Made by a program: the position numbers and the translations under genes. This document shows, piece by piece, positions 20,345 to 33,046 of a DNA stretch of 48,486 bases. Below the pieces are notes generated by a model that was not told where the DNA came from, made no database searches, and saw nothing but the letters and a program-made list of their open reading frames with translations. The first letter of the stretch is position 1; each line of letters starts with the position of its first letter. Source of the stretch: an uncultured Candidatus Melainabacteria bacterium (GTDB lineage: Bacteria > Cyanobacteriota > Vampirovibrionia > Gastranaerophilales > Gastranaerophilaceae); the NCBI GenBank assembly GCA_934754735.1, contig CAKVJE010000002.1:1-48486 (forward strand), given 5' to 3'.

Positions 20345-20707
20345 TTATTTCATATATTTTAACAAAACTTGAGTATTAACACTATTACCAGGATATTTGG
20401 ACGGCAATGGCAAATAAGGTGCACCGGTTTTTACAGCGTTTAATACAGCTGTATTTGCATTTTGATTTGTAGAATTCACAATAAACGGTTCTGTTATTGT
20501 ACCATTTTTAAGAACCCTAAATTGAACAGTCACTTCATAATCTTCGTTTGCTTTGTATGGCGTCCAATTCTTATGAACAGCATTTGGTAAGTATTCAAAA
20601 TACTGATTCAAATTTTCTATCTGTTTTGTATTTGTTTGTAAATTTGAAACATCTCCGGCAAAAACAGGAAGAACCATTAATGTTAACAAAATTAAAAATT
20701 TCTTCAT
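20345..20707 (-). CDS. Secreted TonB/TolA C-terminal-like protein
   Basis: A 120-aa protein with a signal peptide (MKKFLILLTLMVLPVFA, cleavage near residue 18). The rest matches the fold pattern of TonB/TolA C-terminal domains: VHKNWTPYKAN, then VTVQFRVLKNGTITEPFIVNST, NANTAVLNAV and a final VLLKYMK strand. It lacks the membrane anchor and proline-rich linker of true TonB, so it would be free in the periplasm. It lies downstream of the MotA/MotB-like pair on the same strand, 54 bases after the MotB-like gene, but also has its own extended -10 box. Confidence 0.75.
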   Translation of the reverse strand: MKKFLILLTLMVLPVFAGDVSNLQTNTKQIENLNQYFEYLPNAVHKNWTPYKANEDYEVTVQFRVLKNGTITEPFIVNSTNQNANTAVLNAVKTGAPYLPLPSKYPGNSVNTQVLLKYMK

Positions 20708-20713
20708 ACCTAC

Positions 20714-20722
20714 ATTATAACA
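20714..20722 (-). promoter_or_regulatory. Extended -10 promoter, leaderless start
   Basis: TGTTATAAT on the minus strand, with TATAAT at 20714-20719 and six bases before ATG 20707. The six bases are GTAGGT, so a weak ribosome-binding site cannot be fully excluded. Confidence 0.55.
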
Positions 20723-20761
20723 TTTTATTTAGTTTCTTGTAAAATAAATATTTTAATCTTG

Positions 20762-21412
20762 TTACTTACGCATAACAATTTTTAATTCAACTCTGCGGCT
20801 TTTATTGTAATCTTCTTTTCCGTTTATCAAAATAGGAGTAGAAAAACTTGCGCCCTCTACAATAATCATTTTTCTTAAACGATTGCCATTTGATTTATTA
20901 TATGGAGTATTTGTCATATAATTTGCAACAGCATAAGCTCTTTTTAAGCTTAAATCCATATTTTTCATATATTGCTCATCCGCAGAATATTTTCCTTTGA
21001 AAGTTTGAGAGTCCGTATGTCCTTGAATGATTATTCGCTCAATATTTTCATTTAAATACCCATTAGAAAATATCGAATTCAAATATGCAGGCGCAAATTT
21101 GTCTAAATATTTTTTGCCTTTTTCAGAAAGTTCATAACTGTTTATATCAAATAACTCTAAATCTGAAATTTTTACAACGCCTGTTATATCATCAATATTT
21201 GCATTGATATTTTGCGCTTTTAAAGTTTCTTCTAAGGCATCTGAAGCTTTTTTTTGTTCCATTTGTCCTTGGATTTTTTCAATGTAACTTGACATAAATG
21301 TATAGAAAAATAGTACAACAAATACCAGAACTAATGCTGTCATTAGGTCAGTCATTGTTACCCAAAAAATATTTTCTTGATTAGTATCTTCTATTTTTCT
21401 ACGAATTCTCAT
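20762..21412 (-). CDS. MotB/ZorB-like stator subunit with OmpA domain
   Basis: A 216-aa protein with a short basic cytoplasmic N-terminus, then ENIFWVTMTDLMTALVLVFVVLFF (one membrane helix; Asp22 is at the position of the proton-carrying Asp of MotB and ZorB). A linker follows, then an OmpA-like peptidoglycan-binding domain with IIIQGHTDS (about residues 127-135), LSLKRAYAVANYM and RRVEL (206-210). The N-terminal ENxFWVxxxDLMTAL pattern is closer to ZorB than to flagellar MotB. It is encoded 18 bases after its MotA-like partner. TolR/ExbD is excluded by the OmpA domain. Confidence 0.85.
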   Translation of the reverse strand: MRIRRKIEDTNQENIFWVTMTDLMTALVLVFVVLFFYTFMSSYIEKIQGQMEQKKASDALEETLKAQNINANIDDITGVVKISDLELFDINSYELSEKGKKYLDKFAPAYLNSIFSNGYLNENIERIIIQGHTDSQTFKGKYSADEQYMKNMDLSLKRAYAVANYMTNTPYNKSNGNRLRKMIIVEGASFSTPILINGKEDYNKSRRVELKIVMRK

Positions 21413-21430
21413 TGATTTTATCCTAAAATT

Positions 21431-22312
21431 CTAGAATAATTTGTCTACAACATCGTTTCCACCGGAACCTTTATCCATTGTTTCGTTTAATTTGTTCAAG
21501 CTGTATAAAATATTTTCCAAATAAGGTGTTGTATTCTCACTAAGGCTTTTAGTTAAAGATTTTGCAAATTCTTCCGGCAAAGCTTTTAAAAGCTTTTCAT
21601 TTGTCTGACTTTGAATTTTTGATTCTTTAACTAAATCAATTAAAAACTTTTCGCTTGTTACGACATCAAATAGTCTGATAAATTCTTTTTGGATTGCCAA
21701 ACAATATTTTTTACACATTCTGCTGTACATAATTTTTTCAATAAACATAAACAAAAGCGAAAAACCAACTGCAAACACAGAACAAAGTGCTGCCATTTGA
21801 ATATTTGTAATTAAACCGTTAAATGAATTTGTTAAATTTAATTCATCTGAAAAATTAACTTGTGTAAACGCTATAGCCATTTTTAAAAAGGTAAAAAATG
21901 GGCCTAAGCCGGTTAAAAGCGTTGGCATTGTTTGGATAAATTTATTATTAATTTTGGAATAAATTAATGTTTCTTCATTAAAAAAATAAGAAGCATCTAC
22001 CGTAAGATATATTTCCGGTTTAAAATCTGCACTTTGAGCTTGTGAAGCTACAAATAATTTTTCCGGAAAAATCAGAGCTTTTTTAAAATCTTCCCAAGTA
22101 GTTGAGGTAAAAGAATTTGACATCATAAGATTATCTAATTCTTGAAATCTATATGAAAGTTCTTTTTTGTTAAGCGAAGTCAAAACATTTAATACTGAAT
22201 TTAAATTCTTTTCAACTTTTGAGTAGTTGCGAAGGACAGTCATAATAAAAAACAAAAAAGTTGCCGTAATGATTAGAATTGCAGGCTCTTTTAATATATC
22301 TAAAAACGTCAT
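21431..22312 (-). CDS. MotA/TolQ/ExbB-ZorA-like proton channel subunit
   Basis: A 293-aa membrane protein. Predicted helices: residues 11-28, about 130-150 (TMPTLLTGLGPFFTFLKMAIAF) and about 168-192 (LITNIQMAALCSVFAVGFSLLFMF). The TLLTGLGPFFTFLK segment corresponds to the PxxLTxLGxxGTFxG motif of ZorA/MotA-type channels, though degenerate. A cytoplasmic tail of about 90 residues is far shorter than the long tail of known ZorA. AGGAGGAG precedes the ATG. It shares a 60-base divergent promoter region with the 1093-aa gene. Confidence 0.82.
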   Translation of the reverse strand: MTFLDILKEPAILIITATFLFFIMTVLRNYSKVEKNLNSVLNVLTSLNKKELSYRFQELDNLMMSNSFTSTTWEDFKKALIFPEKLFVASQAQSADFKPEIYLTVDASYFFNEETLIYSKINNKFIQTMPTLLTGLGPFFTFLKMAIAFTQVNFSDELNLTNSFNGLITNIQMAALCSVFAVGFSLLFMFIEKIMYSRMCKKYCLAIQKEFIRLFDVVTSEKFLIDLVKESKIQSQTNEKLLKALPEEFAKSLTKSLSENTTPYLENILYSLNKLNETMDKGSGGNDVVDKLF

Positions 22313-22332
22313 TTCTCCTCCTATTGATGTAA

Positions 22333-22365
22333 ATTATAGCATAAACTAAGTTTTTCGACTATAAT
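22333..22365. promoter_or_regulatory. Back-to-back promoters of the stator operon and the 1093-aa gene
   Basis: Minus strand: TGCTATAAT with TATAAT at 22333-22338, leading to AGGAGG and ATG 22312. Plus strand: TATAAT at 22360-22365, seven bases before ATG 22373 (leaderless-like). The two -10 boxes are 21 bases apart, so transcription in the two directions is likely linked or competing. Confidence 0.6.
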
Positions 22366-22372
22366 TTAATAT

Positions 22373-25300
22373 ATGGAATGTCCTAAGTGTCATAAAAAGT
22401 TAGAAGAGAATGCAATTGTATGTCCTTATTGTCATAAGGTCTTAACGTTAGAATGTCCGAATTGTCATAATCATACTGATTCTCCAATTTGTGATAAGTG
22501 TGGTTATACAATTTTAACAAAATGTTCTAAATGCGGGCGTAAAGTATCAACAGCACAAGAAAAATGCAAATGCGGATTTCCTACTAAAACGAGTATTGCA
22601 TATCAAGAATGTGAAACTGACGAGTTTGCATCAATAATAGTAAAATTTTCCGCTTTAAAAAATATTCGTAGAGTTTTAGGCTCACAAGAATTATTTACAA
22701 AGTTTTATTTTAGATTAAGAAATTTGTTAGTAGCTCAAATAAAATCTGTTGAAGGTAAAATTATAATTTACAATGATACGTTTGTAATAAATTTTAATAA
22801 AGAACTTTCTTTTCCAACTTCTGCAAATAAAGCAATAAGACTTGCTATTAAATTAGCAAATGCTTTTGCTGATTTAAATTTGAAAGTTATAAAGGAACTT
22901 GGAACTCCAATAAAATTGAATTTGACGATTACGAAAAAAACAGCAGAACAACTTTTAGACGATACATCTATTGATAATAACGTTAAATTATTGAATATAA
23001 AAAAAGACGAAGCCCAATATTTAAAAGGTATGCAAATTATTCTTGATCAATATGTTTGGGATAGCATAAATAATGACTACAAAACAGATTCGTTGTACAC
23101 AGTTGAAAAAGATGGCGCAACGCTTATGTTCTATGAGTTGTTGTTGCCAAATTATGTATTGCCTCCATCCGGTGAAGTAGATGAAGCGCCGATAGCAAAA
23201 GCTCCTGTTGAAATAAAGAAACAAGTACAACAAGAAAATGATGATATTTATGCGTTTAAGGTATTTGATATAAACGCAAAATGCAGTTTTAAAAAAATGC
23301 CAACTAATAAATTAGTATTGGATGATAGTAAAATTGTTTCAATCCGAGCTGAAAAGGATTTAGAAATATCGACATCTGAAATAATAGATTTTTACAAAAA
23401 TAAAGGTATGCGGATTTTACACGCAACTTGCACTGAAGAGGTAAATTACAAGCCTTGGGGTATTTTTGAACAACTATTTAAAGACTTTTATGGACTTTCT
23501 CTATGCAAAACTTTAATTCCACAAAATTTTGAGGTTAAGCGTTTCAATGCAATAAAAAATTTAATTTATACAAAAGCGCGCAAAGCTTCAACTCCGGAAG
23601 ATGCTAGATTTGCGTATATGGAAGATTTTAGCGACTTTTTAGCATCTTTGAAAAATACAGTTATTTTAATTGAAAGTTTTGAGTTTTTAGATGATACTTC
23701 AATTCAAACACTTGATTTATTTTTTGATAACTTTAAAAAACTAAATGTAAATTTTGTGTTTACGACAAACTCGGAAGTTTCATTGCATTCAAAATTTAAA
23801 AAATTGCTTAGAACGCCAGATTATACAGAATTTGTACTGCAGAAAGCCGGAATTGGTGAACTTCTCGGAGATATTAAAGAAGAAGCAAGTGATTTTATTC
23901 AATCTTTTTATTTTGAAAAAATCAAAGAACAATTTAACGGTTCAACCTTGTATTTTCAAAATGCATTAAAATATCTGATTGAAAAAAATATATTGATAAA
24001 TTTTGAAAACAGGCTTTTAATCAAAAGTAAAAGTTCTATTATTTTACCTAATACCTTGGAGGCTTTATTAAAAGCGCGCTTAAAGGGATTGAGTAAAAAT
24101 ATGGACGCTTCAATGATTTTGGCATATTCCGTATATTTAGGTGCAAGATTAGATTATTTGACGTTAGAAAAACTTGGTATAAAAGAAGTTGTAAAAAATG
24201 TTAAAATTCTTGAGGGAATGGGATTTGTACATATATTAAACAATGTTGTTTATATTAACAATTATAATTTATTGAAGCCGATTTTACTTTCTTCTTTAAA
24301 AAAGCAAGTTGAAGAATTTTTGTGTAAAAATATTCTTGCAAATCTGGGTAAAGATCTCGATGATACTTTAATTCTTTTGATTATGGGTAAATTAGGTTAT
24401 TTTAAGGAAGAATATTTGTTATTATGGCGAAATTCTCAATTTGCAATGACAACAGGAGATTATGACGCGTATTTGAAAAATTGTTTAGGATTTTTGTCTT
24501 TAATCGAACACATAGAAAACAATATATCAGAAGAAGATATTGAAAATAATAAAAAAGAAGTTTTTGAAAATATTTTAATGAGTTTGTACAATTATTCTCC
24601 TACTAAAATTTATTCAATTGAGAATATTTTATTAATGGATGCAATTAAAAATAATGACAATAATAAAATTGTAAAACTCTCAAATTTAATGCTTCAAGGT
24701 GCTTTGGTATCTTCTAATTATTCAGAAGCCTTGCCTTTATTACATAATATTTTATCAAGAATGCAAAATCCAACGTTATTGGTAGATGGCGCAATTAACA
24801 CAAGATTTTTATTGCTTTCGCTGGTTAATATAGAAATATTGTTCAACATTGGTGATTTTGCACAATGCGTGGAAGTCGCAAAAGATTTACTTACTGTTAT
24901 TAAGCCGGAAATTCTTGAAAAAATTAAACCTGCAGGTTTTTCAATTAAACTCTTTATTGAGCATTTATTTGAAACATTCAGGCTTGTAGGCTTTGCAAAA
25001 CTTTTTCTAATGGATGATGATTTAGACGAGTTTTTGGATGCGATAAATGCTGCGTTCGGGGAAGAATTGCCTGATAAAAATGCTATTTTGGCGGTTAGAG
25101 ATTATTTGAACGGTAAAACATTTGCAGTTTCTGATACAGAAAATGCTACACCTTTTGCAAAAGTAATATACTTAATTTTGCAAGAATTTTCAGAACATGC
25201 TGATGATTGCAAAACTTTTGCTCAAAATATTTATCAAGCAAAATTATTAGCTTCTGATATTCATCAACGTCAATTAGAACTATTTTGTGACTTATTAATC

Positions 25301-25654
25301 GCAAATTCTTATGCAAAAATAGGCATAAAGAAAAAAGCTGAGACTATATTTAATGATGTATTAAAACAAGCAACAGATTCAGCAATTTTAACAATCGCTT
25401 TAGTTGCAAAATATTTTATTTCAAAACTTATGCTTGCGAATTCAAAACAGGAAGACGCTCTCCTCATAATTAACGACACGCTTGCGTTATTGCAAAAAAG
25501 CAATAACCAAGCAAAACTATTCTTTATACTCTTCGAAAAACTGCTAATCGACACAGTTCAAGAATACGATATAAGTGCAATTAATATCGATTCAGAAGTT
25601 CAAAAGCTTGCAATCGAAACTGCTGATGGCAAACTTTCAAGGCTTATTAATTAG
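22373..25654 (+). CDS. Zinc-ribbon, pseudo-cyclase, degenerate STAND-type ATPase and helical-repeat protein
   Basis: A 1093-aa cytoplasmic protein. Residues 3-67 form zinc ribbons with six C-x-C or C-x2-C knuckles. Residues about 85-200 follow the class III nucleotide cyclase fold (FASIIVKFSALKNIRRV, SVEGKIIIYNDTFVINFNK, ANKAIRLAIKLANAF) but lack the metal-binding Asp pair. Around residues 320-460 a region aligns by pattern with cyclase-linked AAA/STAND ATPases, yet Walker A is lost (SIRAEKDLEISTSEII) and the Walker B-like VILIESFEFLDDTSIQTLDLF keeps only part of the motif. From about 560 on it is all helical, TPR-like. It is probably a scaffold or sensor, divergent from the stator pair. Confidence 0.78.
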   Translation: MECPKCHKKLEENAIVCPYCHKVLTLECPNCHNHTDSPICDKCGYTILTKCSKCGRKVSTAQEKCKCGFPTKTSIAYQECETDEFASIIVKFSALKNIRRVLGSQELFTKFYFRLRNLLVAQIKSVEGKIIIYNDTFVINFNKELSFPTSANKAIRLAIKLANAFADLNLKVIKELGTPIKLNLTITKKTAEQLLDDTSIDNNVKLLNIKKDEAQYLKGMQIILDQYVWDSINNDYKTDSLYTVEKDGATLMFYELLLPNYVLPPSGEVDEAPIAKAPVEIKKQVQQENDDIYAFKVFDINAKCSFKKMPTNKLVLDDSKIVSIRAEKDLEISTSEIIDFYKNKGMRILHATCTEEVNYKPWGIFEQLFKDFYGLSLCKTLIPQNFEVKRFNAIKNLIYTKARKASTPEDARFAYMEDFSDFLASLKNTVILIESFEFLDDTSIQTLDLFFDNFKKLNVNFVFTTNSEVSLHSKFKKLLRTPDYTEFVLQKAGIGELLGDIKEEASDFIQSFYFEKIKEQFNGSTLYFQNALKYLIEKNILINFENRLLIKSKSSIILPNTLEALLKARLKGLSKNMDASMILAYSVYLGARLDYLTLEKLGIKEVVKNVKILEGMGFVHILNNVVYINNYNLLKPILLSSLKKQVEEFLCKNILANLGKDLDDTLILLIMGKLGYFKEEYLLLWRNSQFAMTTGDYDAYLKNCLGFLSLIEHIENNISEEDIENNKKEVFENILMSLYNYSPTKIYSIENILLMDAIKNNDNNKIVKLSNLMLQGALVSSNYSEALPLLHNILSRMQNPTLLVDGAINTRFLLLSLVNIEILFNIGDFAQCVEVAKDLLTVIKPEILEKIKPAGFSIKLFIEHLFETFRLVGFAKLFLMDDDLDEFLDAINAAFGEELPDKNAILAVRDYLNGKTFAVSDTENATPFAKVIYLILQEFSEHADDCKTFAQNIYQAKLLASDIHQRQLELFCDLLIANSYAKIGIKKKAETIFNDVLKQATDSAILTIALVAKYFISKLMLANSKQEDALLIINDTLALLQKSNNQAKLFFILFEKLLIDTVQEYDISAINIDSEVQKLAIETADGKLSRLIN

Positions 25655-27904: not shown

Positions 27905-29737
27905 TTACAGCAACTGCAACGCTACGGCAGGAGTTTGGTTGGCGGTGGCAAGCAATGTTGCGGCGGCTTGTTGAAGGATTTGATTGCGAATATATTCGCT
28001 CGAAAGATTAGCAATATCCGCATCACGTATTGTCGATTGAGTCGATACTAGATTTTCATAGTGTGTCGAAATTTCGTCAAGAGCGCTGTTTAATCTATTC
28101 TCTATAGCACCCAAATTTGTTTGTTGCTCATTAATTTTAGTCAAAATATTATCAATAGTATCAAAGGCTAAACCATTCGATAAATCAATTCCATTGAGTG
28201 CTGAAAAATCTATTCCCGCTAAATTCAACTCTAGCTGACTAGAATCTGTTGCATTTATCCCAATTTGCAAGTTTAAAGTTTTATTTGCAACATTACTGCC
28301 TGCTTGCGCTAAATCCGAGGAAGGCAAAAGGCCACTCTGAATAAGTTTAATAAGTTCTTCAGTTGTTACTCCTTTTGTGTTGTCAGTAGCACCATTTATG
28401 CCTACCGTTTGCCCTTTTTTAGTATTGTCATAGTAACAATTTGAAGTACTAACACTTGTATTAGTCCCAGACAGTCCAAGAATTGCAGCTGATTTAGTTT
28501 CATCACCGGCAAACAAATCAGAGGCAGAATAGCTGTTTGATATAGATAAATTTCCAGTAGCTGAAGTGCTATCCGATAAAGCAACAAGTCCTGCTACATA
28601 TCCATCGTTTGATTTAATTTGTCCCATAACAGAGCATCCGGAAATTGTTAGTGTTTCCCTTAGCATATAAGATGTAATCCCTGCAGCTGTTGTTACCCCT
28701 GTCACATTACCTGAAAAATTTGTATTCGAAATTGAACCACCATCTTGTACAATACCTACAACACCACCAGCAACAGCTCCATTAATACTACCGGAGACTA
28801 GGCAGTTATCTATTTTCCCCCCATCCGTTATAATCGCTACAATTCCACCTGCATATCCGTTACTTGCAACCGAATTTACGTTCTTTAGATTAAGGTTTTT
28901 TACTGTGCCAGATGTTACAGCACCAAATAGCCCCGCAAAATCACTCTCTACTTGACAACAAAGATTAGAAATTGTAAATCCATTTCCATCAAATATTCCA
29001 GAAAAATCTTTTGCAGCAGCCCAATTTACTCCTGACAAATCTATATCATTCGCCAATACAAACTCTGTATTTGAGCCAAGTTTTCCATTAGTACACATTG
29101 TGGAGAATTTTATCAAGTCTTCTTTCGTCGATATTGAATACGTACCACTTGTCAATGAAGAATTCTCATCTACATTGGATAATGATGTCATCCCACTTGT
29201 ATTGCGTGAATTTACCGGTTTTATAAAATTAGAAGAATCACTGCTTTGAAGTGCAATCGCACTTCTTGATGCAAGCTTTCTAGCAGCGTGAGTTGATGGA
29301 GTTGATGCGTCTTTAGTATCCTCAACAAACAGTTTTATTCCATTATACTCTGCTGTCGTTTGAAGCCTGTTTAACTCTTTTATTAGAGCACTAGCTTCTG
29401 AATTAATGGCATCAATAGATGAGTTTCCATAAGTCCCATTTTGAGCCTGAGTAGCAAGAGTACGTAATCTTGACATTCTATCGCTCATTTCTTCTAATGT
29501 TTCAGAAGCAGTTTGCACCATATCCAAGCCCATTAGAGCATTTTCCTCGCCAGTATTGTAGGCGCCAAGTTTTGTTGTGATTGAAGTCGAGATTGAATAA
29601 TTTGCAGCATTGTCTTTTGCATGATTGAGTTTGAAGCCCGTTGTCATGCGTTCAATAGCCAGATTTAAACCGTTTGTGGAGGTCTTGAGGTTGGATTGGA
29701 TGATGAGGGATGAGAGGTTCGTATTGATTGATATCAT
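27905..29737 (-). CDS. Flagellin with inserted GLUG-type repeat domain
   Basis: A 610-aa filament protein. Residues 1-140 are the D0/D1 N-terminus (ISINTNLSSLIIQ, LRTLATQAQNGT), and about 485-610 the D1/D0 C-terminus (ENRLNSALDEISTHYENL, IRDADIANLSSEYIRNQILQQ). Between them, about 200-475, lies a beta-rich domain with FAGLFGAVTSGTVKNLNL, YAGGIVAIITDGGKIDNCLV, VAGGVVGIVQDGGSISNTNF and VAGLVAL repeats that fit the GLUG motif of surface adhesins. Six cysteines (215, 260, 261, 312, 368, 434), rare in flagellins, all lie there. ATG 29737 was chosen because AGGAGG is six bases before it; GTG 29743 is too close. Confidence 0.93.
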   Translation of the reverse strand: MISINTNLSSLIIQSNLKTSTNGLNLAIERMTTGFKLNHAKDNAANYSISTSITTKLGAYNTGEENALMGLDMVQTASETLEEMSDRMSRLRTLATQAQNGTYGNSSIDAINSEASALIKELNRLQTTAEYNGIKLFVEDTKDASTPSTHAARKLASRSAIALQSSDSSNFIKPVNSRNTSGMTSLSNVDENSSLTSGTYSISTKEDLIKFSTMCTNGKLGSNTEFVLANDIDLSGVNWAAAKDFSGIFDGNGFTISNLCCQVESDFAGLFGAVTSGTVKNLNLKNVNSVASNGYAGGIVAIITDGGKIDNCLVSGSINGAVAGGVVGIVQDGGSISNTNFSGNVTGVTTAAGITSYMLRETLTISGCSVMGQIKSNDGYVAGLVALSDSTSATGNLSISNSYSASDLFAGDETKSAAILGLSGTNTSVSTSNCYYDNTKKGQTVGINGATDNTKGVTTEELIKLIQSGLLPSSDLAQAGSNVANKTLNLQIGINATDSSQLELNLAGIDFSALNGIDLSNGLAFDTIDNILTKINEQQTNLGAIENRLNSALDEISTHYENLVSTQSTIRDADIANLSSEYIRNQILQQAAATLLATANQTPAVALQLL

Positions 29738-29754
29738 GCGCACCTCCTGCTTAA

Positions 29755-31096: not shown

Positions 31097-31912
31097 ATGG
31101 AATTTGAAACCTCATACAATAAAATAAAAAAAGTTACGAATGAAGAGTTGGCAGAAATGTGGGCTCGATATTTCGATGACCATGATAACAAGGAATTGAG
31201 AGATGCCCTTATCCTTCAATACATTTATCTTACAAGATACGTAGTTGGTCGTGTAAAAGTAGCACTTCCGCCAACATTTTCGTATGAAGATATTTCAAGT
31301 TATGGCGTAGAAGGTTTGATTGACGCTGTTGAAAAATTTTCACCTAAAATGGGCGCAAGATTTGAAACTTACGCACTTGTTCGTATCAGAGGAAATATTA
31401 TTGACAAAATTCGTTCGCAAGATTTTCTTCCAAGAAGTGTAAGAAGAAAAATTAAAGATGTTAAAGAAGCGCAAGAAGAATTGAAAAAACAATTCGGTCG
31501 TTCTGCTACAAATACAGAAATTGCGAACTACTTGGGAATTGAAAGAGAGAAGGTTGAACAGCTGTTATCTGATGATACAACTGTTACTTCGATTTATGAC
31601 AAAAAAGGTTCATCAGACGGGGATATTGAAATTATTGATACGATTCAGGACTCACATAATTTAGCTCCTCACGAGGAATTGGAAGAAAAAGACGTTAAGA
31701 AGGAGCTTGAGAACGCTTTGAAGAGATTGCCTGAAAGAGAAAGAACTATCATGGTTCTTTATTATCATGAAAACATGACTTTAAAAGAAATCGGTGAAGC
31801 TATTAATGTTTCTGAATCAAGAATTTCACAATTACATGCGCAAGCGATTATGAAGCTTAAGAATTTGTTAAGTGAAAATCGTTCTGAAAGATTAAAGAAA
31901 AGTATTATTTAA
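31097..31912 (+). CDS. fliA: FliA/WhiG-family RNA polymerase sigma factor
   Basis: Sigma-28-type factor, normally directing flagellin and late motility genes. The 271-aa protein lacks region 1.1. It has region 2 (YIYLTRYVVGRVKV, FSYEDISSYGVEGLIDAVEKFSP, FETYALVRIRGNIIDKIRSQDFLPRSVRR), region 3 (AQEELKKQFGRSATNTEIANYLGI) and region 4 with the helix-turn-helix (LPERERTIMVLYYHENMTLKEIGEAINVSESRISQLHAQA). No clear Shine-Dalgarno site; GTTACAAT lies about 35 bases upstream. The flagellin at 27905 is the obvious nearby target. Confidence 0.9.
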   Translation: MEFETSYNKIKKVTNEELAEMWARYFDDHDNKELRDALILQYIYLTRYVVGRVKVALPPTFSYEDISSYGVEGLIDAVEKFSPKMGARFETYALVRIRGNIIDKIRSQDFLPRSVRRKIKDVKEAQEELKKQFGRSATNTEIANYLGIEREKVEQLLSDDTTVTSIYDKKGSSDGDIEIIDTIQDSHNLAPHEELEEKDVKKELENALKRLPERERTIMVLYYHENMTLKEIGEAINVSESRISQLHAQAIMKLKNLLSENRSERLKKSII

Positions 31913-32002
31913 TTTTATCATTCGAAAGATAAATACACGAATTTTCACAGTTTTTTAATTAAAAATACTACGCATAGAGTAGGCATGCAAAACTCTTTAG
32001 TG

Positions 32003-32008
32003 TATAAT
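32003..32008 (+). promoter_or_regulatory. -10 box of dgt, leaderless start
   Basis: TATAAT exactly six bases before ATG 32015, with TG directly before it. No ribosome-binding site and no good -35 box are visible. Confidence 0.55.
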
Positions 32009-32014
32009 TTAGCT

Positions 32015-33046
32015 ATGAATACTGAATTTAAGACCATTAAAGATACATTAGAACAGCGTGAAATGGAACTTTTAAGTCCTTATGCGACTAAATGTTTAAA
32101 TTCAAAAGGCCGAAAACGCAAACGCGAAGAACAATTTGAAATAAGGACAGAATTTCAAAGAGACAGAGATAAAATCTTACATTCTAAATCATTCAGACGC
32201 TTAAAACACAAGACTCAGGTCTTTTTATCCCCATTTAATGACCATTTTAGGACAAGATTGACGCATACGCTTGAAGTTGCTCAAATAGGGCGTACAATGG
32301 CGCGCGCCTTAAACCTGAATGAAGATTTAGTTGAAGCAATATCACTAGGACATGATTTGGGACATACAGCCTTTGGGCATTGCGGAGAAGGTACATTAGA
32401 CGAACTTTTACCGACCGGTTTTCACCATAATTTACAGAGCGTTAGAGTTGTAGAAGTTTTAGAAGACATGAATCTTTGCAAAGAAACTGTTGACGGAATT
32501 TTAACCCACACCTGGGGATATAAGCCAAAAACTCCTGAAGCTCAAATCGTTCAATACGCAGATAAGATTGCATATATCAATCACGATATAGAAGATTCAG
32601 TAAGAGCCGGAATTATATCTGAAAATGATTTACCCGCTGATTGCGTGAAATACTTTTCTTCTAATCAATCTGTAAGGTTAGGCAAAATGATTACAGATGT
32701 TATTACCAATTCATTAGATAAGCCTAAAGTTACGATGTCCGAAGAAGGATGGTTTTATGTAACAAAACTCCGGACTTGGATGTTTGATAATGTTTATTTA
32801 GACCCAATTGCAAAAGCTGAAGAAAAAAAAGCTAAAAATATTATTCGCTCATTATTTGAGTATTATATTAATATGCTTCAACCTTATTATGATGCAGAAG
32901 AAATTCCGCAAATTGTAACTGACCATATTTCCGGAATGACAGATCAGTATGCAATAAGACGTTACAAAGACTTGTTTATTCCTATGCCATTGGCCGATAA
33001 AACTAGTGATGATGCTCTGCTTAAGAAAGCTCGTGAAAGAGAATGA
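32015..33046 (+). CDS. dgt: Deoxyguanosinetriphosphate triphosphohydrolase-like HD protein
   Basis: Hydrolyses dGTP or other dNTPs to nucleoside and triphosphate. The 343-aa protein has RDRDKILHSKSFRRLKHKTQVF, RTRLTHTLEV (His of the HD site), ISLGHDLGHTAFGHCGE (His-Asp), TGFHHNLQS and YADKIAYINHD. The length fits the non-proteobacterial dGTPase group. The start at MNTEFKTI is chosen from the -10 box; an ATG ten codons upstream (31985) is possible but lies before that box. The stop overlaps the next start (ATGA). Confidence 0.92.
   Translation: MNTEFKTIKDTLEQREMELLSPYATKCLNSKGRKRKREEQFEIRTEFQRDRDKILHSKSFRRLKHKTQVFLSPFNDHFRTRLTHTLEVAQIGRTMARALNLNEDLVEAISLGHDLGHTAFGHCGEGTLDELLPTGFHHNLQSVRVVEVLEDMNLCKETVDGILTHTWGYKPKTPEAQIVQYADKIAYINHDIEDSVRAGIISENDLPADCVKYFSSNQSVRLGKMITDVITNSLDKPKVTMSEEGWFYVTKLRTWMFDNVYLDPIAKAEEKKAKNIIRSLFEYYINMLQPYYDAEEIPQIVTDHISGMTDQYAIRRYKDLFIPMPLADKTSDDALLKKARERE

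Follow-up and report, generated by a model that had tools for sequence, protein, structure and literature searches.

A short-tailed ZorAB pair and its divergent zinc-ribbon partner in Gastranaerophilales: a possible inherited cell-wall sensor

The subject of this work is a small set of genes found in a stretch of 48,486 nucleotides (called the window in the following) from an uncultured Candidatus Melainabacteria bacterium of the order Gastranaerophilales (contig CAKVJE010000002.1). Between positions 20762 and 25654 this window encodes a ZorB homologue, a short ZorA homologue and, divergently oriented and separated from zorA by 60 bases, a protein of 1093 amino acids (aa) to which we refer as the giant (Table 1). 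Together with a small gene downstream of zorB, the four open reading frames (ORFs) are arranged as stated in an initial annotation that had been made from the letters of this DNA alone.

Table 1. Features of the zorAB–giant locus (positions of the window)
Feature	Position	Strand	Remark
Secreted TonB_2-domain protein, 120 aa	20345-20707	-	54 bases downstream of zorB
zorB-like gene	20762..21412	-	216 aa; one membrane helix and OmpA-type peptidoglycan-binding domain
Codon of ZorB Asp22, channel aspartate position	21347..21349	-	invariant in homologue sets
Short zorA-like gene	21431..22312	-	293 aa; ~96 residues past last hydrophobic segment
ZorA C-terminal tail motif, D..DKLF in window	21434..21454	-	candidate docking site
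Divergent promoter region	22313..22372	no strand	-10-like boxes 22333-22338 (towards zorA) and 22360-22365 (towards giant)
Giant partner gene	22373..25654	+	1093 aa, predicted cytoplasmic
Zinc ribbons of giant, residues 1-72	22373..22588	+	Pfam DZR and invariant Cys
Class III cyclase-like domain of giant, residues 82-252, predicted inactive	22616..23128	+	model and sequence
STAND-like ATPase region and winged-helix-like part, residues 318-640, no P-loop	23324..24292	+	paralogue collinearity
TPR-like helical repeats of giant, residues 644-1093	24302..25651	+	

By sequence comparison the membrane pair belongs with ZorA and ZorB and not with MotAB, TolQR or ExbBD. The ZorB-like protein is matched by the PADLOC model ZorB1 over residues 5-215 (expectation value E = 2.8e-51) and by Pfam OmpA (E = 3.4e-10), its single hydrophobic segment spans residues 14-45, and a profile built from 16 ZorB homologues ranks the ZorB chains of 8vvi, 8qyd and 8vvn first and MotB and PomB far lower. 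It keeps GHTDS...LSxxRA, the signature of OmpA-type domains. Asp22 is invariant in 16 of 16 close homologues as well as in 16 of 16 proteins of a wider set; the role of channel aspartate is ascribed to D24 and D21 in Zorya types I and II, respectively (PMC11890865). The ZorA-like protein is matched by PADLOC ZorA1 over residues 12-274 (E = 1.2e-28), a match that covers only the head of the 699-position profile, and Pfam gave no match to PF01618 (MotA_ExbB) in it. NCBIfam ZorA_2 reaches 88.8 bits, which is under its cut-off of 100, and the NCBIfam ZorB equivalogs stay far under 400 on the window's ZorB. A profile from 19 ZorA proteins retrieves five solved sequences at E 1e-3, all of them ZorA (four so named, and 8vvn, which is a type I ZorAB according to PMC11890865). 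The relatedness to Zor proteins, as the initial annotation had proposed it, is thus borne out by PADLOC and by the matches to solved structures, and the profile searches favour ZorA/ZorB over a place within ordinary MotAB or TolQR, which it had named as the contrary outcome. The short tail described there is likewise real and lineage-wide: all 19 ZorA proteins compared measure 289-316 aa and the long tail of Zorya defence is absent from them. Their C-terminus reads LF or IF in 15 of the 19 and LFE in two more.

The giant begins with zinc ribbons (Pfam DZR, E = 2e-6) in which twelve cysteines are invariant in 17 of 17 homologues. A model of residues 76-262 has a predicted local distance difference test (pLDDT) score of 82.5, and all 50 structural matches listed for it are nucleotidyl cyclases. 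No aspartate is found at the end of strand 1 in any of 17 sequences and the hairpin aspartate is kept in 15 of the 17, the two metal-binding residues being expected at the positions that they have in cyclase structures. The domain is predicted, from model and alignment, to have a cyclase fold without the first metal aspartate and to be inactive. For the model of the giant the first match given by Foldseek is 6mfv (E = 4.4e-8), with a template modelling (TM) score of only 0.16-0.24; coverage in the VIA table of the entire protein is almost confined to the TPR part, so that this table provides no test of the ATPase region. Weak matches to Pfam AAA_16 are seen in three of 18 giants (the best at 5e-4), and a motif search for Walker A, [GA]x4GK[ST], found none in 18 of 18. 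Altogether Pfam, the models and the comparison with paralogues uphold the initial description of the protein as one of zinc ribbons, a cyclase-like and an ATPase-like domain and helical repeats. The giant is likely a doubly dead cyclase/STAND scaffold.

Zinc-ribbon paralogues of the giant are also present in genomes of the order. The four that were scanned match AAA_16 at E 4.5e-8, 4.2e-7, 8.2e-6 and 9e-6, only the first of them above the Pfam cut-off, and one AAA_16 paralogue is collinear with the window's giant over residues 336 to 1043 (E = 2e-11). [GA]x4GK[ST] occurs at the fitting place in 15 of 16 paralogues (G009 has it only elsewhere), and a P-loop is found in paralogues L226-L228 too. 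In a tree of 35 rows, among which the paralogues L228 and G563 form very long branches, all 18 giants fall together to one side of a branch with support 91. The alignment reads G-x4-G-K-L in the giant of the deep genome G017 where the paralogues have [GA]-x4-G-K-[ST], and the motif is wholly gone in the window's kind; it looks as if the P-loop had decayed stepwise in the ZorA-linked lineage. An apparent giant of G010 (E = 4.6e-94) was rejected, being a P-loop paralogue instead. Apart from this, zinc-ribbon STAND paralogues with intact P-loop at L226:3525-7529, L227:1490-4986 and L228:3669-7245 are located directly 3' of a gene for 186-198 aa, which encodes sigma-70 region 4 in the one scanned (L227); such a sigma factor and its STAND paralogue could possibly form a regulator pair.

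A scan of one genome per species yielded 23 loci; five that matched only the zinc-ribbon start were set aside, which left 18 true homologues. In 17 of these 18 loci zorA and zorB stand divergently beside the giant gene, and in the remaining one (L001) ZorA is on a different contig of the same genome. The initial annotation would have given up its proposal if the large gene were not conserved next to the pair; what is found is a conserved partner. Of 46 close genomes in which both genes could be placed, 41 have them 57-152 bases apart, one (G319) has them at 2.2 kb and four on separate contigs. In the wider family zorAB and giant are often apart: ten genomes chosen as split show the giant next to a starch synthase gene in eight cases and the pair next to a DUF711 gene in eight. 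Among six other genomes of this wider family five have the genes together and one (G384) has them 1.3 kb apart, with a starch synthase gene after the giant in five of the six and a DUF711 gene after zorB in two. The deep genomes G017 and G011 have zorAB and giant adjacent and divergent. As the genes are found together in close, wider and deep genomes and both are mostly kept where they are split, the linkage is probably ancestral and was repeatedly dissolved with retention of both genes. In 12 of 19 close loci the next gene after the giant is co-directional and encodes 214-224 aa (L003, L006, L007, L009-L012, L014, L016, L018, L138 and L139), not in the window; the one product scanned (L006) gave no Pfam match.

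The gap between zorA and giant measures 57-91 bases, and in all 18 loci it contains a pair of -10-like boxes placed back to back. TATAAT occurs exactly 7 bases before the ATG of the giant in all 19 close homologues, and TATA[AC]T precedes zorA in 18 of 18; as background, 816 ORFs of at least 150 aa from 58 sources were examined, of which 71 have TATAAT at a distance of 3-10 bases from the start codon on its 5' side. We infer that these conserved boxes act as promoters, and since only 7 bases separate TATAAT from the ATG a leaderless mRNA is predicted for the giant. In the wider family, where some starts are uncertain, TATAAT is seen 6 bases before the start in 11 of 21 giants and within 70 bases in 9 of 17 zorA genes. 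Leaderless mRNAs appear to be common in this lineage, as the background count suggests.

The distribution was determined in 383 genomes of Gastranaerophilales (defined as the order of L005), with E < 1e-40 for the giant and E < 1e-60 for ZorA as limits of a strong match. The giant occurs in 258 and ZorA in 255 of them; both are present in 248 (about two thirds), the giant only in 10, ZorA only in 7 and neither in 118, the set being usually single-copy per genome. Many of the genomes are incomplete: of 80 genomes, 12 have no rpoB. Of the seven genomes with ZorA only, four (G011, G017, G153 and G155) carry a diverged giant, which is unlinked in G153 and G155. With a wider giant profile (A4) ZorA-less genomes score too, up to E 4.6e-94, and those inspected are paralogues. 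Among 292 genomes of the phylum all 108 strong ZorA matches are in genomes of the order's draw; 16 other genomes of the phylum give weak ZorA matches in frames of 451-749 aa. In quick trees with midpoint roots, presence of either gene versus absence requires two changes (rpoB, 66 rows) and the label for neither gene three changes (SecA, 33 rows, with G017 among the outer lineages). Since so few changes are needed, the set probably dates back to the origin of the order and has been inherited mainly vertically, entire clades having lost both genes together; a few joint transfers may have occurred as well. Two records titled 'uncultured Acinetobacter sp.' (L007 and L009) contain the module at 54-55% identity, like records of Gastranaerophilales, and their titles look wrong.

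Two readings of the pair as an ordinary motor can be judged from these data. The least probable of all explanations considered is a Ton/Tol-like energy transducer in which ZorAB would drive the secreted TonB-C-like protein on the outer membrane. This protein, with its TonB_2 domain and signal-like start encoded just downstream of zorB, invites the idea and was listed with the pair in the initial annotation; no such gene was found near the module in 18 plus 57 other loci examined (overlapping sets), so it is private to the window and was dropped as part of the module. Moreover, ZorA is not ExbB or TolQ by profile, and each of 80 genomes has at least one separate MotA_ExbB gene. Highly improbable is also a flagellar or surface-motility stator, although the pair belongs to the 5:2 motor family and the window has a flagellin gene at 2.3 kb from the far end of the giant. 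In the 80 genomes the presence of the set is independent of flagellin, which is found in 29 of 42 genomes with it versus 26 of 38 without it, and flagellin is absent from 8 of 28 genomes that contain zorA and giant; a flagellar role is ruled out already by these counts. In addition, at least two MotA_ExbB genes are found in 53 of the 55 genomes with flagellin, this ZorA not being among them by Pfam, and each of the 25 flagellin-less genomes contains a single one, its frame measuring 212-237 aa. That some of these bacteria have lost their flagella is described in PMC4040986. The flagellin of the window itself (27905-29743, minus strand) has 612 aa with a long insert between N- and C-terminal domains that matches Peptidase_M26_N weakly.

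The main rival, which we consider rather unlikely, is a chromosomally fixed anti-phage system. Here ZorAB would respond to the damage that an incoming phage does to the wall, and the giant would take the place of ZorC/D/E in recruitment or sensing, a role that STAND proteins have in other immune systems. In its favour, no other profiles match ZorA and ZorB as well as those of defence systems do, and the giant has a STAND-TPR architecture. Whole clades lack the set, and Zorya III shows that partner genes are exchangeable (PMC8565338). Against it stands the short ZorA in 19 of 19 proteins, as defence by Zorya I and II depends on a long tail (PMC11890865). Models of ZorC-G gave no match on the giant (E up to 10) or on ten neighbouring proteins (E 1e-3), the rest of the genomes not having been searched, which agrees with the lack of ZorC/D/E near the pair stated initially; nor was a nuclease or helicase matched on the giant or these ten neighbours. 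The neighbours are housekeeping genes and not a defence island, and the changes on the gene trees are few. In viral contigs 26 stretches matched a pattern and none encodes a relative, though defence systems need not occur there. The initial proposal of a Zorya-like cassette with the giant as effector is therefore not sustained for a set that is inherited, usually in single copy, in so large a part of the order. PADLOC calls of MzaA and a dGTPase at 31097-33046 (plus strand) correspond by Pfam to a sigma factor and an HD-domain protein; they are likely false defence calls and were not counted.

We give about an even chance to the reading that the set is an inherited cell-wall sensor, composed of a ZorA5B2-type motor and the giant docked on its short tail, and not a mobile anti-phage system. 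Several observations weigh against it. Ten genomes have the giant without ZorA, and three of the ZorA-only genomes (G075, G318 and G346) show only a paralogue-type protein; the giants of G153 and G155 have no zinc ribbons, the two deepest ZorA homologues (G017 and G011) lack the ...LF end, and the full model of the giant has a predicted TM score (pTM) of 0.49. The co-occurrence in the 383 genomes (Fisher p 6e-77) ignores kinship and, the genomes being related, is no proof of coupling, and a test of independent pairs could not reach significance because there are too few independent changes. The mirror-tree comparison gave a partial correlation of 0.67 between ZorA and giant (17 genomes); in the eight genomes also with SecA the value for giant and SecA was 0.85 and that for ZorA and giant 0.70. 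As this control is as high, the tree distances carry no coupling signal and co-evolution was dropped as support. The lack of such a signal would suit the view that zorAB and giant are functionally unrelated and that their adjacency is merely old gene order, all the more since the genes are far apart in many genomes and both would be near-core in the same clade, so that their co-occurrence is partly kinship. We nevertheless regard it as decidedly unlikely: the same divergent arrangement is met in close, wider and two deep genomes, the shared intergenic boxes are conserved throughout the 18 loci, both genes are jointly absent from several clades on the SecA tree, and no more than 17 of the 383 genomes contain one without the other, in spite of the frequent gaps in these assemblies.

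On the cytoplasmic side the partner of the motor is likely the giant, and we infer a physical coupling between them. In its fullest form, put forward tentatively and as somewhat less than evenly probable, the cell-wall sensor would be an order-wide fixed ZorAB outside defence, whose short-tailed ZorA5B2 turns, or exerts strain, against the wall and so drives a doubly dead cyclase/STAND scaffold, i.e., a mechano-signalling machine. ZorA and ZorB would form a 5:2 assembly with ion flow in the inner membrane, and upon strain or damage of the wall the ZorA ring would turn about the peptidoglycan-bound ZorB. Through its tail, which ends in the conserved ...LF, ZorA would bind the giant. As this protein presumably can neither use ATP nor synthesize cyclic nucleotides, it would serve as a scaffold: its shape or its partners would change with the state of the motor and the signal would be passed on via the TPR surface and the zinc ribbons. 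Since the channel aspartate and the OmpA signature are kept and the tail is short, the same sensing front end seems to be combined with a different back end. If this holds true, ZorAB would for the first time be seen to serve outside immunity, and for the first time a pseudo-STAND protein would be connected with an ion-driven motor. In phage defence, from which ZorAB is known, nucleases are recruited by the motor and the long tail is indispensable; a natural, lineage-wide short-tailed ZorAB with a dead-enzyme partner lets one ask what the motor itself senses and bears on whether the defence motor arose from a housekeeping motor or the reverse. Gastranaerophilales would gain a candidate envelope-sensing machine.

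The literature on related motors provides the frame for comparison. In Zorya I and II the ZorA5B2 complex binds peptidoglycan via ZorB, needs ion flow and requires the long ZorA tail for defence; ZorE is recruited by ZorAB, and wall damage is suggested as trigger, although according to the authors this still awaits direct proof in vivo (PMC11890865). In Zorya III the partners are ZorF and ZorG (PMC8565338). ZorAB is regarded as remote in a survey of 5:2 motors, whose trees do not include it (PMC12505986), and a 2026 preprint on Zorya II is devoted to other questions (PMC13192584). A search of the open literature found no work naming both Zorya and Melainabacteria, Gastranaerophilales or related names; PMC7159879 was rejected, as it matched through the name of an author.

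With Zorya types I-III (partners ZorCD, ZorE or ZorFG) the set shares the homology of ZorA and ZorB, the channel aspartate, the OmpA-type domain of ZorB and a cytoplasmic partner encoded nearby. It differs in the ZorA tail (~96 residues instead of several hundred), in the partner, which is a zinc-ribbon pseudo-cyclase/pseudo-STAND/TPR protein with no ZorC-G match nearby, and in its distribution, since about two thirds of the order's genomes searched have it, with few tree changes and outside defence islands. MotAB, TolQR and ExbBD have in common with it the plan of a two-subunit ion-driven motor, and MotB also the OmpA-type domain of the B subunit, but the window's ZorA is without PF01618, its profile finds only ZorA structures and the set is independent of flagellin. 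Soluble adenylyl cyclase represents a class III cyclase-NTPase-TPR architecture. The giant shows the same order of cyclase, ATPase and helical repeats, with a cyclase fold according to the model; in contrast with this enzyme it has zinc ribbons in front, a single cyclase-like domain, no first metal aspartate (17 of 17) and no P-loop. Finally, STAND ATPases with TPR (6mfv; MalT) resemble the giant in the fold match of its model, in the collinearity with P-loop paralogues and in the TPR-like C-terminus, whereas the giant has lost the P-loop in 18 of 18 cases and is linked to a membrane motor pair.

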